Source: Pseudoxanthomonas mexicana
GTDB taxonomy: Bacteria; Pseudomonadota; Gammaproteobacteria; Xanthomonadales; Xanthomonadaceae
Length of the DNA: 64,000 nucleotides
Assembly (NCBI RefSeq): GCF_010093385.1
Contig: NZ_PDWV01000004.1
Coordinates: 62,001-126,000, forward strand
Direction of reading: 5' to 3'
The position numbers and the translations under genes are program-made. Positions 23,664 to 61,717 of this stretch are shown piece after piece (the first letter of the stretch is position 1; the number at the start of each line of letters is the position of its first letter). The notes under the pieces are model-generated. The model saw only the letters and a program-made list of their open reading frames with translations, did no database searches and was not told where the DNA came from.

Positions 23664-23680
23664 CGTGAGTTAAACTCACG
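23664..23680. promoter_or_regulatory. LysR-type operator, probable TrpI binding site
   Basis: Perfect palindrome CGTGAGTTaAACTCACG with 8-nt arms, containing the LysR-family T-N11-A signature (T at 23666, A at 23678) and a GTGAG-N5-CTCAC core. It is centred about -62 from the predicted trpBA start, and also covers the region just before the regulator's own ATG at 23683, so binding could both activate trpBA and repress trpI. Confidence 0.65.
23671..23676 (+). promoter_or_regulatory. trpI: -10 element of trpI, 6 nt before the start codon
   Basis: TAAACT ends exactly 6 nt before the ATG at 23683, so the transcript would begin at or next to the start codon (leaderless). It lies inside the operator palindrome, so TrpI bound there would block its own promoter. 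No good -35 match is present. Confidence 0.45.
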
Positions 23681-56925: not shown

Positions 56926-58494
56926 TCAGGGCGCGCCGGCCGCCCCACCCGCGGCGACGGTCCGTGCTTCGGCCTCGGCCTGCGCACGCGCGGCGAACAG
57001 CGTGCCGGGCGGCGGCTGGCGGGTGAAGTAGGACTGGATGCCGTCCAGCACCGCGCTGGCGACCTTGCGCTGGTGCGCGGGATCGAACAGGCGCTTCTCT
57101 TCGTCGGGGTTGGAGATGAAACCCGTCTCCACCAGCATCGCCGGCATGTCCGAATTGCGCAGCACTTCGAAGTTGGCGAACTCGATCTGCGGCTTGTGGG
57201 TCTTGCCCAGCCCTTTCAGCGAGGTCAGCACATGGCCGGCCGCATCCTGCGAGGCCTTCATGTGGCCGCTCTGGGCCAGGTCCAGCAGCACGTTGGACAG
57301 CGTGTCCCGGGTCAGGCGCACGCCGCCGACCAGGTCCGAGGCGTTTTCCTTGTCGGCCAGCCAGCGCGCGTGCTGCGAGGACGCGCCCCGCAACGACAGC
57401 ACGTAGACCGACGAGCCCCAGGCGCTGCGGTTCTCGGCCGCGTCGGCATGGATGGAGACGAACATGTCCGCCTTCGCCGCGCGCGCCTTGCGGGCGCGCT
57501 GGGGGCGCTCGACATAGACGTCGTTGTCGCGGACCAGGTAGGCCTTCATGCCGGGCGTGGCGTTGATCTGGCGCGCCAGTTCCTTGGAAATGGCCAGCAC
57601 CGCGTGCTTTTCGTAACGGCCACTGGGACCGATGGCGCCGGGATCCTGGCCTCCGTGGCCCGGATCGATCGCGATGACCAGCGGACGCGCGCCGGTGGCG
57701 GCCATGGCGGGCGGTTTCGGCGATTCGGCGACTGCTGCAGAAGGCGCCTGGGCCGATGCCCCCGTCGCGACAGGCGCGGGCTGACCGGTGGCGATGGTGT
57801 AGGCGGGGCGCTCGCTGGAGGTAGCCGGGGCCGGGATGGGCGTGCTCTGGCCGTTGAGGATGGCCTGCGGCGAAGGCGACAGGGCCCCCTGCGTCGGTGC
57901 GGCCGCCGCGGGTGCGGGTGTTGTGCCCGCCCGCACCCCCTGCGCAGTCAGCAGCGCCGTGGCGCGGGCTGCGTCGGTCTGGGTCGACCCTGGGACCGCG
58001 GTCGGCGACGCGGAGGGCGCCGCCGTCGCGACTACCGCCTGCGGAGGCGTGGCCTGCGCAGGCGTGGCGGGGGGCGGTGCGGGCGCGGCCGGGCCGTCGC
58101 CCGGCCACTCGATCACCAGGCGCGATACGCCCGCCACCTGTTCCATGCGAGGCTTCAGCGCGGCGACTGGCGATGCCAGGTCGAAGACGATGCGCAAAGT
58201 GTCGGCATCCGGCTGCCCGGTGCGCACGGCGCGCACGATGCCCGTGGGCGCTGGCAGTCGCAGGCCGGCCTTCGCCTTCGAGGCAGGCAGGTCGACGGCC
58301 AGCCGGTCGGGACCTTGCAGGCTCAGCGTCTTGTATTGCCCGGCGCCCGCCAGCTGGATCTCCGCGCGCGTCCCGGTGCTGCCCTGGTTCACCGAAATGC
58401 CGGTGACCTCACCTGCCCACAGGGCGAAGGGCGCTGAAGCGAGCAGGCCCGCAAGGGCCAGGCGCAGCATGGTGGTGGGGGTCCCCGGGCTCAT
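56926..58494 (-). CDS. amiC: N-acetylmuramoyl-L-alanine amidase with AMIN domain
   Basis: A 522-residue periplasmic amidase that splits septal peptidoglycan during division. Signal peptide LRLALAGLLASAPFALWA, AMIN domain (VTGISVNQGSTGTRAEIQLA onward, to about 130) for septal targeting, a long Pro/Ala/Thr linker (about 135-265), then the Amidase_3 domain with zinc ligands in IDPGHGGQDPGAIG, a glutamate before KHAVLAISKELA, and VSIHADAAENR. The regulatory-helix insertion is present. ATG at 58494 is supported by a leaderless promoter; ATG 58470 is the alternative. Could be called amiB by position next to mutL. Confidence 0.92.
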   Translation of the reverse strand: MSPGTPTTMLRLALAGLLASAPFALWAGEVTGISVNQGSTGTRAEIQLAGAGQYKTLSLQGPDRLAVDLPASKAKAGLRLPAPTGIVRAVRTGQPDADTLRIVFDLASPVAALKPRMEQVAGVSRLVIEWPGDGPAAPAPPPATPAQATPPQAVVATAAPSASPTAVPGSTQTDAARATALLTAQGVRAGTTPAPAAAAPTQGALSPSPQAILNGQSTPIPAPATSSERPAYTIATGQPAPVATGASAQAPSAAVAESPKPPAMAATGARPLVIAIDPGHGGQDPGAIGPSGRYEKHAVLAISKELARQINATPGMKAYLVRDNDVYVERPQRARKARAAKADMFVSIHADAAENRSAWGSSVYVLSLRGASSQHARWLADKENASDLVGGVRLTRDTLSNVLLDLAQSGHMKASQDAAGHVLTSLKGLGKTHKPQIEFANFEVLRNSDMPAMLVETGFISNPDEEKRLFDPAHQRKVASAVLDGIQSYFTRQPPPGTLFAARAQAEAEARTVAAGGAAGAP

Positions 58495-58501
58495 GCCGCG
58501 G

Positions 58502-58530
58502 ATTCAAGCACCATCGCCTCACAAATGCAA
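58502..58530 (-). promoter_or_regulatory. amiC: Leaderless promoter of amiC
   Basis: TTGCAT (58525-58530) and TTGAAT (58502-58507) are separated by 17 nt on the minus strand, and only 7 nt separate the -10 from the ATG at 58494. Transcription would begin at the start codon itself. Confidence 0.55.
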
Positions 58531-58569
58531 GGCGTTTTCCCTTAATAATCCGTGACCTGCCGGATGTTC

Positions 58570-59052
58570 CTAATCGGACTGGAGAGATGAGGCCGTTAAC
58601 TCACCTTCCGTAGCCACGCGCTCCAGCCACTGCTGTCCTTGGGGCGAGGCCGCCACCAGGCGCGCCGCCCGGCCGTTGCCCTCCACCGAAAGGTCTACCT
58701 GCAGATCGGCCGGTGGCAACGCCGCCCCGCCGCGCTCCGGCCACTCCACCAGCCAGAGCACGGCCGCCCCTTCGTCCAACCCGAGGAATTCCAGCTCCCC
58801 CGCGTCACCGATGCGGTACAGGTCCAGATGCCAGGCTTCTCCGCCTTCCACGGGATAGCGTTCCACCAGCGTGTAGGTGGGGCTGCGGATGGCGCCCGCC
58901 ACGCCCAGGGCGCGCAGCAGGGCGCGGGCAACGGTGGACTTGCCGGCGCCCAGGTCGCCGCGCAGGTGCACGACGGCGACCGCAGGACGCGTGCGTGCCA
59001 GGGCCTGGCCCAGCGCCTCGGTGGCGTCGGTGTCGGGAAGGAACAGGTGCAT
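58570..59052 (-). CDS. tsaE: tRNA threonylcarbamoyladenosine biosynthesis ATPase TsaE
   Basis: A 160-residue ATPase that works with TsaB, TsaD and TsaC to make t6A37 in tRNA. The Walker A is GDLGAGKST at residues 32-40, followed by SPTYTLVERYP (switch region) and HLDLYRI and EWPERGG, all typical. Length is normal. No ribosome binding site is visible; a TAGAAT ends 6 nt before the ATG, suggesting a leaderless mRNA. It lies between amiC and nnrD, as in other gammaproteobacteria. Confidence 0.96.
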   Translation of the reverse strand: MHLFLPDTDATEALGQALARTRPAVAVVHLRGDLGAGKSTVARALLRALGVAGAIRSPTYTLVERYPVEGGEAWHLDLYRIGDAGELEFLGLDEGAAVLWLVEWPERGGAALPPADLQVDLSVEGNGRAARLVAASPQGQQWLERVATEGELTASSLQSD

Positions 59053-59058
59053 GTGGCG

Positions 59059-59064
59059 ATTCTA
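59059..59064 (-). promoter_or_regulatory. tsaE: -10 element of tsaE, 6 nt before the start codon
   Basis: TAGAAT on the minus strand lies at 59064-59059, with 6 nt before the ATG at 59052. No convincing -35 is present, so this is a weak promoter call supported mainly by matching geometry at neighbouring genes. Confidence 0.4.
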
Positions 59065-59100
59065 TGCGCTCAGGGCACGCATGACCGGTGAACGCACGAC

Positions 59101-60570
59101 TCAGGGGTTGGCCAGACGGCGCACGTGCGGAAGAAGGTCCGACGGCAGCAGCCCACGCTCGCCGTCCCAGGCAGCGGCATCACCCGCCAGTCCATGCAGC
59201 AGCGCGCCCGCGCTCGCCGCGTCGAAGGCCGACAGCCCCTGCGCGCGCAGCGAGGCGATGATGCCGGTCAGCAGGTCGCCCATACCCCCCACCGCCATGC
59301 CGGGGTTGCCTGCCGCCACGATGTGCGTCGCCTGCCCGCTTGCGACCAACGTACCTGCACCCTTCAGCACCACGACGGCCGCGTAGCGCTGTGCGATGGC
59401 CTGTGCGGCGCCGACGCGGTCGCGCTGGACGTCGGCCACGGTGCAGGCGAGCAGGCGTGCGGCTTCGCCCGGGTGTGGTGTGAGAACTGCATCCTGCAAA
59501 GGATGCGCTGTCGCGGACAACAGGTTCAGCGCATCCGCATCCACCACCAGTGGCAGGCCGCTGCGCAGTGCATGCTGGAACAGCGCCTGCCCCCACTCGC
59601 CCTGGCCCAGGCCGGGGCCGACGGCCACCACGCGGGCACGCGCGACCATGGGAATCAGATCGTCCGTGGCTTCGGCCGCACGCACCATCGCTTCGGGCCT
59701 GCGCGCGAGCAGTGCGGGCACGTGGGCCGGCCGCGTGGCCACGCTCACCAGGCCGGCCCCTGCACGCAAGGCGGCTTCGGCGCACAGCGCGATGGCGCCA
59801 CCACTGCCCTCATCGCCCCCGATGCACAGCACGTGGCCGGACTCGCCCTTGTGCGTATTGCGTCGCCGCGGCAACAGCCACGGCACCAGCGCATCGTGGT
59901 CGAGCAGCGAGGCGTCGGCGGGCACGCCTTCGAAGCTCTCCCCGGGAAGATCCAGCTCCTCCAGTGCGAGCTGACCGGTGTATTCCAGCGCATCGCCGGT
60001 GTGCAGTCCGACGTGCCTCACGATGAACTGCAGCGTGCGGGTCGCCAGCACGGCAGCGCCGGGCGCACTGCCGCGATCGGCATCCACGCCGCTGGGGCCG
60101 TCCAGAGCGAACACCGGCGCGGCCTGCGTGTTGATCGCCTCGATCAGGGCACGCGCCTCGCCCTCCGGCGCACGCGACAGGCCGATGCCGAACAGCGCGT
60201 CCACCACCAGGTCGGCATGCGGAAGCACGGCGTCGAACAGCGCGACCCGTCCGCCGGCGGCCACGTACTCGGTGCACGCGCGCTGCGCGACGGAATTTCC
60301 CGGTACGTGCGAACGCAGGTGCACCACATCCACGCTGCGTCCGGCGCGGTGCGCATGCCGGGCCAGCACGTAGCCATCACCGCCATTGCTGCCCGGCCCG
60401 CACACCACGACGATGCGCTGTGCCTCGGGCCAGTGCTGCAGCACGTGCTGCCACGCCACCTGTCCCGCGCGCTGCATCAGCACGTAGGCGTCGCCGCCGA
60501 GGGCGCGCGTGGCACGCTGGTCCAGCGCCCGCGCGGCTTGCGTGGAGTACAGGGGCCAGGTGCCGGACAT
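59101..60570 (-). CDS. nnrD: Bifunctional NAD(P)H-hydrate epimerase / ADP-dependent dehydratase
   Basis: A 489-residue repair enzyme (YjeF) that restores damaged NADHX and NADPHX. The N-terminal epimerase domain (about 1-215) carries VVCGPGSNGGDGYVLARHA and VVDALFGIGLSR. The C-terminal carbohydrate kinase-like dehydratase domain (about 225-489) has GDEGSGGAIALCAEAALRAG, VLTPHPGEAARLL and NPGMAVGGMGDLLTG, the catalytic GxGD region. Divergent from queG with only 67 bp between the start codons, and a -10 element 6 nt before its ATG. Confidence 0.95.
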   Translation of the reverse strand: MSGTWPLYSTQAARALDQRATRALGGDAYVLMQRAGQVAWQHVLQHWPEAQRIVVVCGPGSNGGDGYVLARHAHRAGRSVDVVHLRSHVPGNSVAQRACTEYVAAGGRVALFDAVLPHADLVVDALFGIGLSRAPEGEARALIEAINTQAAPVFALDGPSGVDADRGSAPGAAVLATRTLQFIVRHVGLHTGDALEYTGQLALEELDLPGESFEGVPADASLLDHDALVPWLLPRRRNTHKGESGHVLCIGGDEGSGGAIALCAEAALRAGAGLVSVATRPAHVPALLARRPEAMVRAAEATDDLIPMVARARVVAVGPGLGQGEWGQALFQHALRSGLPLVVDADALNLLSATAHPLQDAVLTPHPGEAARLLACTVADVQRDRVGAAQAIAQRYAAVVVLKGAGTLVASGQATHIVAAGNPGMAVGGMGDLLTGIIASLRAQGLSAFDAASAGALLHGLAGDAAAWDGERGLLPSDLLPHVRRLANP

Positions 60571-60576
60571 GGCCGG

Positions 60577-60630
60577 ATTCTAGGTCCGCGCAAGGTTGCG
60601 GGGAAGTGAAGCCGGCCGGCCTCCTATAAT
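60577..60630. promoter_or_regulatory. Compact divergent leaderless promoters of nnrD and queG
   Basis: Minus strand: TAGAAT (60582-60577) ends 6 nt before the nnrD ATG at 60570, with TTCCCC at a 17-nt spacing (60605-60600). Plus strand: a perfect TATAAT (60625-60630) ends 7 nt before the queG ATG at 60638. Both transcripts would start at or next to the start codon within a 67-bp interval that has no ribosome binding site. Confidence 0.55.
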
Positions 60631-60637
60631 CCCGCGC

Positions 60638-61717
60638 ATGCCCGTTCCCGGCCCCACTGCCGCCCTGCCCGATCCATCGCTGCTCGCGCAACGGGTCCGC
60701 GCGCTTGCGCGGGAGTTCGGCTTCCAGCGCTGCGGCATCGCCGGCATCGAACTGGGCGAGGACGAACAGCACCTGCGCGACTGGCTGTCGCAAGGGTTGT
60801 ACGGCTCGATGGACTGGATGGCCCAGCATGGCGACAAGCGGTCGCGCCCGCAGGAACTGATTCCCGGCACGCTGCGGGTGATCTCCGTGGGCCTGGACTA
60901 CGGCCGCAACGACAGCGACGACGCATGGGACACGCTGCAGGACGGCACACGCGCCTATGTCGCGCGCTATGCCCTGGGCCGCGACTATCACAAGCTGATG
61001 CGTCATCGCCTGCAGAAGCTGGCCGAACGGCTGCAGCAGGACGTGGGCGTGTTCGGATACCGCGTATTCGTGGATTCGGCGCCGGTGCTGGAGCGCGCGC
61101 TGGCCCGCAATGCCGGATTGGGCTGGATCGGCAAGCACACCTGCCTGATCGACAAGGATGGCGGCTCGTGGTTCTTCCTGGGCGAGATCTACGTCGACCT
61201 GCCGCTCCCTATCGATGCACCGGCCACGGCGCATTGCGGCACCTGCACGCGCTGCATCGAGGTCTGCCCCACGCAGGCGATCACCGCGCCGTACCGGCTG
61301 GACGCGCGCCGCTGCATCTCCTACCTGACCATCGAGCACGAGGGCGCGATTCCGGAAGACCTGCGGCCGGCCATCGGCAACCGCATCTTCGGCTGCGACG
61401 ATTGCCAGCTGGTCTGCCCCTGGAACAAGTTCGCCAGACGCACCGACGAACCCGACTTCCGCGCGCGCAACGACCTGGACGTGGCCACGCTGCCGCAGCT
61501 GTTCGCATGGAGCGAAGACGAATTCCTGCGCCGCACCGAAGGCTCCGCGATCCGCCGCAGCGGCCACGAACGCTGGCTGCGCAACATCGCCGTCGCGCTG
61601 GGCAATGCGCCGTCGACGCCCGATGTGGTCGCCTCGCTGGAAAGCCGCCGGGACGATCCTTCAGCCGTCGTGCGCGAGCATGTGGCCTGGGCGCTGCGCA
61701 GGCACCCACCTCTGTAG
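60638..61717 (+). CDS. queG: Epoxyqueuosine reductase
   Basis: A 359-residue cobalamin and iron-sulfur enzyme that reduces epoxyqueuosine to queuosine in tRNA. The N-terminal part includes GFQRCGIAGIELGEDEQHLR and YGSMDWMAQHGDKRS. Two [4Fe-4S] sites are seen in CGTCTRCIEVCPTQAI and the later CDDCQLVCPWNKFA, with LGWIGKHTCLI between. The C-terminus has a HEAT-like repeat (RSGHERWLRNIAVALGNAPS). ATG at 60638 is chosen from the leaderless -10; an upstream in-frame extension to 60596 is rejected. Its TAG stop lies inside the REP element. Confidence 0.95.
   Translation: MPVPGPTAALPDPSLLAQRVRALAREFGFQRCGIAGIELGEDEQHLRDWLSQGLYGSMDWMAQHGDKRSRPQELIPGTLRVISVGLDYGRNDSDDAWDTLQDGTRAYVARYALGRDYHKLMRHRLQKLAERLQQDVGVFGYRVFVDSAPVLERALARNAGLGWIGKHTCLIDKDGGSWFFLGEIYVDLPLPIDAPATAHCGTCTRCIEVCPTQAITAPYRLDARRCISYLTIEHEGAIPEDLRPAIGNRIFGCDDCQLVCPWNKFARRTDEPDFRARNDLDVATLPQLFAWSEDEFLRRTEGSAIRRSGHERWLRNIAVALGNAPSTPDVVASLESRRDDPSAVVREHVAWALRRHPPL

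Follow-up and report, generated by a model that had tools for sequence, protein, structure and literature searches.

Predicted leaderless promoters of nnrD, queG and tsaE in Pseudoxanthomonas mexicana, and compact forms of the nnrD-queG interval in its relatives

Introduction

Leaderless genes and bidirectional promoters are each known, and the region analyzed here, around the divergent genes nnrD and queG of Pseudoxanthomonas mexicana, bears on both. In the available text of the survey of Zheng et al. (2011; PMC3160421), leaderless genes of the TA-led type carry TANNNT about 10 to 12 bp upstream of the start codon and no Shine-Dalgarno (SD) sequence, and genomes of high GC content retain only TAnnnT. 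Bidirectional sigma70 promoters (Warman/Grainger) are described, in the available text of PMC10268837 and PMC12825309, as near-symmetric -10 elements read on both strands; their start pairs lie 7 to 25 bp apart, most commonly 18 bp, with reciprocal pairing between positions -7 and -11 and with T at position -18 (PMC10268837). The stretch under study (the window: 64,000 nt of contig NZ_PDWV01000004.1, from an assembly of 3.97 Mb in 115 contigs) carries, at about 56.9 to 61.7 kb, amiC, tsaE and nnrD on the reverse strand and queG on the forward strand, with mutL downstream of amiC. An earlier note on this DNA had proposed leaderless promoters for these four genes, and what it read directly from the sequence stands: hexamers resembling a -10 element end 6 or 7 nt before each start codon (6 nt in tsaE and nnrD, 7 nt in amiC and queG), no SD core lies at a usable distance upstream of any of the four, and the interval between nnrD and queG is 67 bp.

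The genes nnrD, tsaE and queG, along with a trpI-like gene elsewhere in the window, resemble TA-led genes in the position of TANNNT, about 6 to 7 nt before the start, from which amiC departs with its TTGAAT; the lack of SD cores, another trait of TA-led genes, applies to nnrD, tsaE, queG and amiC alike. The survey in PMC3160421, as far as its available text goes, proceeds genome by genome, whereas here single orthologous promoters are tracked across families, two of them back to back; a search of that text finds neither Xanthomonas nor Xylella named. The word "leaderless" is missing from the available text of PMC10268837 and PMC12825309, and a conserved fusion of leaderless starts with a bidirectional promoter, or these genes in such a fusion, was not found in the open-licence literature searched by title and abstract. 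As to bidirectional promoters, the window's own nnrD-queG interval lies outside the definition, with predicted starts 68 bp apart at two separate -10 elements; overlapping and compact forms in relatives have overlapping -10s and, from their geometry, predicted starts 18 to 25 bp apart. What sets these forms apart from the described bidirectional promoters is that both predicted +1 positions are protein start codons and that the arrangement persists across families. For Xanthomonas, of the same bacterial family as the window, Schmidtke et al. (2012) reportedly found that about 14% of mRNAs are leaderless and that an SD consensus is missing, so a sizeable leaderless fraction is to be expected here. 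The divergent order queG / nnr-tsaE-amiB of Escherichia coli is the same as in the window.

TANNNT is enriched 6 and 7 nt before start codons

Our own-genome sample consisted of the window and 60 further stretches (1,012,943 bases together), in which a simple gene finder made for this analysis, using no annotation, called 776 genes, 651 with ATG starts and 649 of these with enough upstream sequence (note that it set the amiC start at 58470, not 58494). TANNNT precedes 40 of the 649 starts at a distance d of 6 or 7, where d is the number of nucleotides between hexamer and start codon: 31 cases fall at d=6 and 9 at d=7, with one each at d=5 and d=8, against a background mean of 4.5 per offset over d=15 to 39 (Poisson P ~2e-16 at d=6). 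Around internal Met codons, the expectation for d=6 and d=7 combined is 0.8. TAGAAT is the most frequent hexamer in this class (10 of the 40 starts), and SD cores are almost missing from it (2/40, versus 262/609 among the remaining starts; Fisher P 2e-7). The earlier note had argued that such consistent spacing is unlikely by chance, and that a lack of genome-wide enrichment at this distance would speak against its proposal; the count bears the argument out, as the hexamer is enriched exactly at d=6 and d=7. With the spacing usual for sigma70, +1 falls on the A of an ATG when the -10 hexamer ends 6 nt in front of it, so the sharp peak at d=6 points to predicted start sites at the start codon itself.

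The enriched hexamer is that of tsaE, nnrD and queG; the TTGAAT of amiC is not a TANNNT, and its type, TTnAnT, is not enriched there, with a single case at d=6 and none at d=7 in this sample. Further d=6/7 starts of the genome belong to genes that, judging by N-terminal sequence only, may be recN, xthA, tdk and trpF. If the leaderless reading is true, this class, about 6% of the called ATG starts in the sample, should be treated as leaderless by gene finders and in expression designs, and start-codon predictions will diverge from SD-based annotation.

Conservation differs from gene to gene

Orthologues were scored for TANNNT 6 to 8 nt 5' of every ATG or GTG that lies in frame close to the expected start in 80 named and 22 class-level loci; these groups include relatives and hence are not independent. 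Among named loci, the nearest QueG relatives come from Pseudoxanthomonas and Lysobacter, and P. kalamensis (L069) belongs to the window's own genus. The hexamer is present before nnrD in 44/45 near, 26/29 far, and 9/15 class-level loci and before queG in 36/48, 23/31, and 7/21, respectively; within the genus (30 loci), it precedes both genes in 30/30. For tsaE, the genus count is 23/30, including all 15 of the loci closest to the window, and the wider named loci give 1/46 and 1/28. In those wider loci, the sequence 5' of tsaE is mostly the end of nnrD, and because of this the predicted tsaE promoter looks like a gain within this genus (an early reading of it as unconserved was withdrawn in view of the 23 genus loci). 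The corresponding counts for amiC are 2/45 and 1/9. The four genes, treated in the earlier note as independent cases, are not of equal status: nnrD and queG form an old divergent pair that in relatives has one predicted -10 region in common and whose hexamers are kept across part of the Gammaproteobacteria, the predicted tsaE promoter is confined, in our samples, to the genus, and amiC has a different element.

In nnrD and tsaE, the coding pattern of conservation sets in at the ATG, as expected of true starts: third codon positions directly after it are less conserved (0.71, versus 0.88 and 0.90, in nnrD and 0.69, versus 0.82 and 0.90, in tsaE). The N-terminus of queG is variable.

The nnrD-queG interval keeps its start-codon distances across architectures

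For the divergent pair, start codons were picked by protein alignment alone, and TANNNT was scored at d=5 to 8. From the 80 named loci, 5 were dropped (3 without both genes found, 2 with the genes nonadjacent), and 5 of the remaining 75 gave no usable start pair. The class sample drew on 60 of 86 new queG-bearing families, taken by falling queG score, with nearer families over-represented; 27 of its 82 loci were set aside with queG or nnrD absent from the stretch (in 5 of these, the queG piece gave no match), a further 6 of 55 had no usable start pair, and the second hits L204 and L205 were excluded. Both genes have the hexamer in 48/70 named, 23/30 order-level, and 15/49 class-level usable pairs, as against means of 0.25, 0.17, and 0.54 and maxima of 2, 2, and 4 after shuffling of the spacers.

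Offsets were tallied over distinct spacers only. In the 94 that are at least 33 bp long, where hexamers are free to lie anywhere, d=6 occurs in 54 for nnrD and 45 for queG, d=7 in 8 and 6, and every other offset in 0 to 5. When both distances are taken together, the 161 distinct spacers comprise 49 of type (6,6), 21 of (7,6), 14 of (6,7), and 7 of (7,7), with 14 others in which both lie within 4 to 9. Distance from hexamer to codon is therefore kept while the distance between the promoters varies, and this holds for nnrD-queG spacers from 17 to 116 bp.

Compared with its relatives, the window is the exception: its 67-bp interval stands apart from a near-minimal, predicted shared promoter that is common among them. 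An overlapping -10 core between the two starts, in an interval of about 22 to 24 bp, is found in 40/48 near named loci, with the letters ATT[CT]TATACT, and in 14/18 loci of the window's own family in the order sample. L071, for example, reads CAT cgcacgattctatacttggcac ATG, and its leftward TAGAAT and rightward TATACT have two bases in common. Eight near loci fail the core test, although three of them (L084, L092, and L105) still show the core, the nnrD alignment having begun late. Within the genus, 15 of 30 loci, including the window, are of the split type (66, 67, or 115 bp), 14 carry the overlapping core, and one, L316, shows neither arrangement. Rhodanobacteraceae mostly have 33 to 70 bp with two separate hexamers. 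At class level, spacers of 17 to 20 bp surround one symmetric TATNATA in 11 of the 55 loci with both genes adjacent, and split forms occur as well (L254, L262, and L267); the spread of compact forms over the class suggests that this form is old. (In the information content of the compact form, ten core positions are fixed by anchoring on the core, such that the flanks alone are informative.) Loci of the split form also have a block in the middle, GGTTGCGGGGAAGTGAA (window positions 60597 to 60615), which is largely conserved in the 15 genus loci and lies near the -35 positions of both predicted promoters.

L185, with a 17-bp spacer reading CAT gccggtatcatagcggt ATG and d=6 on both strands, allows a direct comparison with bidirectional promoters. 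A 17-bp spacer between two leaderless codons means that the starts would lie exactly 18 bp apart and that the opposite CAT would contribute the T at -18; read against the rule in the available text of PMC10268837, the reciprocal -7T/-11A and the -18T are both found at this one locus. Spacers of 22 to 24 bp give predicted starts 23 to 25 bp apart, at the edge of the 7- to 25-bp definition in that text.

A symmetric leaderless layout as a common genome-wide device was considered and rejected: the exact pattern CAT-N5-TATNATA-N5-ATG has 4 sites in 56 genomes, versus 8 for its backward control, and of the four only the nnrD/queG site lies between two long open frames. With the pattern unenriched genome-wide, the layout is therefore a feature of the nnrD/queG pair. 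Divergent CAT..ATG pairs were also counted in DNA sampled from five genomes: those flanked on both sides by a hexamer at d=6 to 7 number 3 of 2,183 open pairs in the window's own genome and 1 of 470 in Rhodanobacter and are absent from X. hortorum (0/366), S. rhizophila (0/373), and Lysobacter (0/284); shifted controls give 0, and every pair found has a spacer of at least 41 bp. Two pairs of the own genome may be recorded here: a cardiolipin synthase / PA0069-family radical SAM pair (L022:15558-15618; 55 bp, the hexamers TAGAAT and TAAGCT both standing 6 nt from their ATG) and a gamma-carbonic-anhydrase-like / aldehyde dehydrogenase pair (L017:4087-4140; 49 bp, both hexamers at d=6).

The amiC element

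In 45 of 74 loci of related families, TTnA(A/C)T lies 6 to 8 nt before an ATG (search range, 5 to 9); of these 45, 28 have d=7 and 12 have d=8. Most of these hexamers are TTGAAT (22) or TTGACT (14); TG precedes them in many rows, and a -35-like TTG(C/A)A stands at 17-bp spacing in 35. The amiC element is thus a conserved, full promoter by prediction, although the second base of its hexamer is T. Farther 5' than the -35-like element, relatives have in common a block similar to ATTATTAAGGGAAAA (window positions 58525 to 58560).

Proposed mechanism

For nnrD, queG and tsaE, the data are best explained by leaderless transcription, which is also likely for amiC, because of the geometry, the enrichment at d=6, the absence of SD cores, and the distance to the start codon kept among orthologues. 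Each of the four genes would have its own sigma70-type promoter, RNA would start at or within 1 to 2 nt of the A of the start codon, and the messages would be translated by leaderless initiation. The tsaE and amiC promoters would be additional ones inside the nnrD-tsaE-amiC-mutL string. As for nnrD/queG, the pair may descend from, or interconvert with, a compact bidirectional promoter whose single -10 region serves both strands and whose +1 sites coincide with the two start codons; the promoters overlap in this form, and for that reason one polymerase-binding event would shut out the other. This common region would have split, in the lineage of the window, into two -10s 67 bp apart, with the start-codon distances still 6 to 7 nt, and this copy would work as two ordinary divergent promoters. 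We regard the account as a whole, from leaderless sigma70 promoters for four genes to the compact bidirectional origin of nnrD/queG, as probable.

The case is evenly balanced for a bolder version: that this is an old minimal promoter of the Gammaproteobacteria, with codons 17 to 24 bp apart serving as the +1 sites (and at 17 bp as each other's -18T) of one symmetric -10, that it yields two mutually exclusive leaderless mRNAs, and that leaderlessness itself is selected, since the lineages that split the -10 would keep both messages leaderless. If true, this one locus shows that a gene pair can stay leaderless for long periods even as its promoter architecture changes, and that leaderlessness is not just a by-product of compact spacing; the nnrD-queG intervals (17 to 20, 22 to 24, and 33 to 116 bp) would then form a natural series for studying how polymerase chooses its direction at a symmetric promoter.

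Alternative explanations

Several observations weigh against the leaderless account. Relatives show weak enrichment at d=6 and 7 combined in 200-kb samples (X. hortorum, 6 versus 2.0 expected; Lysobacter, 4 versus 0.4; Rhodanobacter, 4 versus 1.5; and S. rhizophila, 2 versus 1.5, which alone shows nothing). About half of the class-level pairs are without the geometry (nnrD in 24 and queG in 21 of 49 usable), and in E. coli, unlike here, the annotated nnr and queG start codons overlap and no -10-like hexamer lies 6 to 7 nt before either. In the compact form, the -35 match does not rise above shuffles on either side (1.74 and 1.98, versus 2.26), because of which these predicted promoters look -10-driven. 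Finally, -10 elements carry A at -11, where the amiC element has T, and 20 of the 31 own-genome hexamers at d=6 open with TAG or TAA in frame, a stop that can steer the start caller to that ATG. This last point favors an extremely improbable reading, in which the hexamers are chance AT-rich sequence or an artefact of the way starts are called, where a stop in frame 12 nt upstream makes the next ATG the first available. Such an artefact is opposed by the other in-frame offsets, which hold 0 (d=3), 1 (d=9), and 3 (d=12) stops, and by the non-stop TAC/TAT hexamers, which have a peak of their own (11 cases at d=6, 6 at d=7, versus a mean of 2.6 elsewhere); the TATAAT of queG contains no stop, and orthologue conservation and the spacer shuffles speak against it as well.

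That the promoters are real but have short leaders or upstream starts, with translation relying on other signals, is unlikely: the d=7 and d=8 variants, among them most amiC matches, do imply 1 to 2 extra nucleotides, but the sharp peak at d=6 is the spacing with +1 on the A, and the near absence of SD cores from the d=6/7 class tells against it. We consider it very improbable that the palindromic nnrD-queG core is the operator of a regulator and not a shared -10, however strongly its letters are conserved in near relatives. Across lineages, those letters vary (TATCATA, ATTCTATACT, TATAAT plus TACAAT), each version still -10-like and 6 to 7 nt from its start, whereas a single operator would preserve letters and symmetry, not the distance to two codons. 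Somewhat doubtful, yet deserving more weight than these, is the view that amiC differs from the other genes, its TTGCAA-N17-TGnTTGAAT being an alternative promoter, or one under regulation, for which a leaderless start is not required. The lack of genome-wide TTnAnT enrichment and a conserved TTAAGGGAAAA-like block farther upstream agree with this, as does T at the second hexamer position in 45/45 amiC loci, a uniformity that follows by construction from the TTnA(A/C)T search. Set against it are the canonical 17-bp spacer and a hexamer-to-ATG distance that is again 6 to 8 nt in all 45 matching loci, with 5 to 9 allowed.

Features of the window

Coordinates are collected in Table 1. Three gene identities hold above NCBIfam cut-offs (tsaE, nnrD, and queG); the "amiC" product resembles AmiA/B/C-type amidases with scores under all curated cut-offs, so that the letter is tentative. 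The earlier note had ascribed the same geometry to trpI, and the hexamer is indeed in place; the name is not confirmed, the gene encoding a LysR regulator that adjoins trpB.

Table 1. Features of the nnrD-queG region and the trpI-like gene (window positions; hexamer distances are to the ATG)
Feature	Position	Strand	Basis
queG, epoxyqueuosine reductase, predicted leaderless	60638..61717	+	TIGR00276 E=2.5e-150
TATAAT, predicted queG -10, ends 7 nt 5' of ATG	60625..60630	+	sequence; genus TANNNT d6-8 in 30/30 loci
nnrD-queG divergent interval, 67 bp, split form, two separate predicted -10s	60571..60637		sequence, genus loci
TAGAAT, predicted nnrD -10, ends 6 nt 5' of ATG	60577..60582	-	sequence; 30/30 genus loci
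nnrD, NAD(P)H-hydrate epimerase/dehydratase, predicted leaderless	59101..60570	-	TIGR00196, TIGR00197
TAGAAT, predicted tsaE -10, ends 6 nt 5' of ATG	59059..59064	-	sequence; 23/30 genus loci
tsaE, predicted leaderless	58570..59052	-	TIGR00150
TTGAAT, amiC -10-like element, TGC before, ends 7 nt 5' of ATG	58502..58507	-	sequence, relatives
TTGCAT, amiC -35-like element, 17 bp from -10-like element	58525..58530	-	sequence
amiC, N-acetylmuramoyl-L-alanine amidase, likely leaderless or with 1-2-nt leader	56926..58494	-	NF038267 E=8e-74, below cut-off
TAAACT, ends 6 nt 5' of LysR-gene ATG (23683), "trpI" of the earlier note	23671..23676	+	sequence

At the far end of the gene string, mutL carries TANNNT at d=6 to 8 in 13/17 far and 10/34 near named loci, and its putative leaderless geometry seems to come and go among loci.

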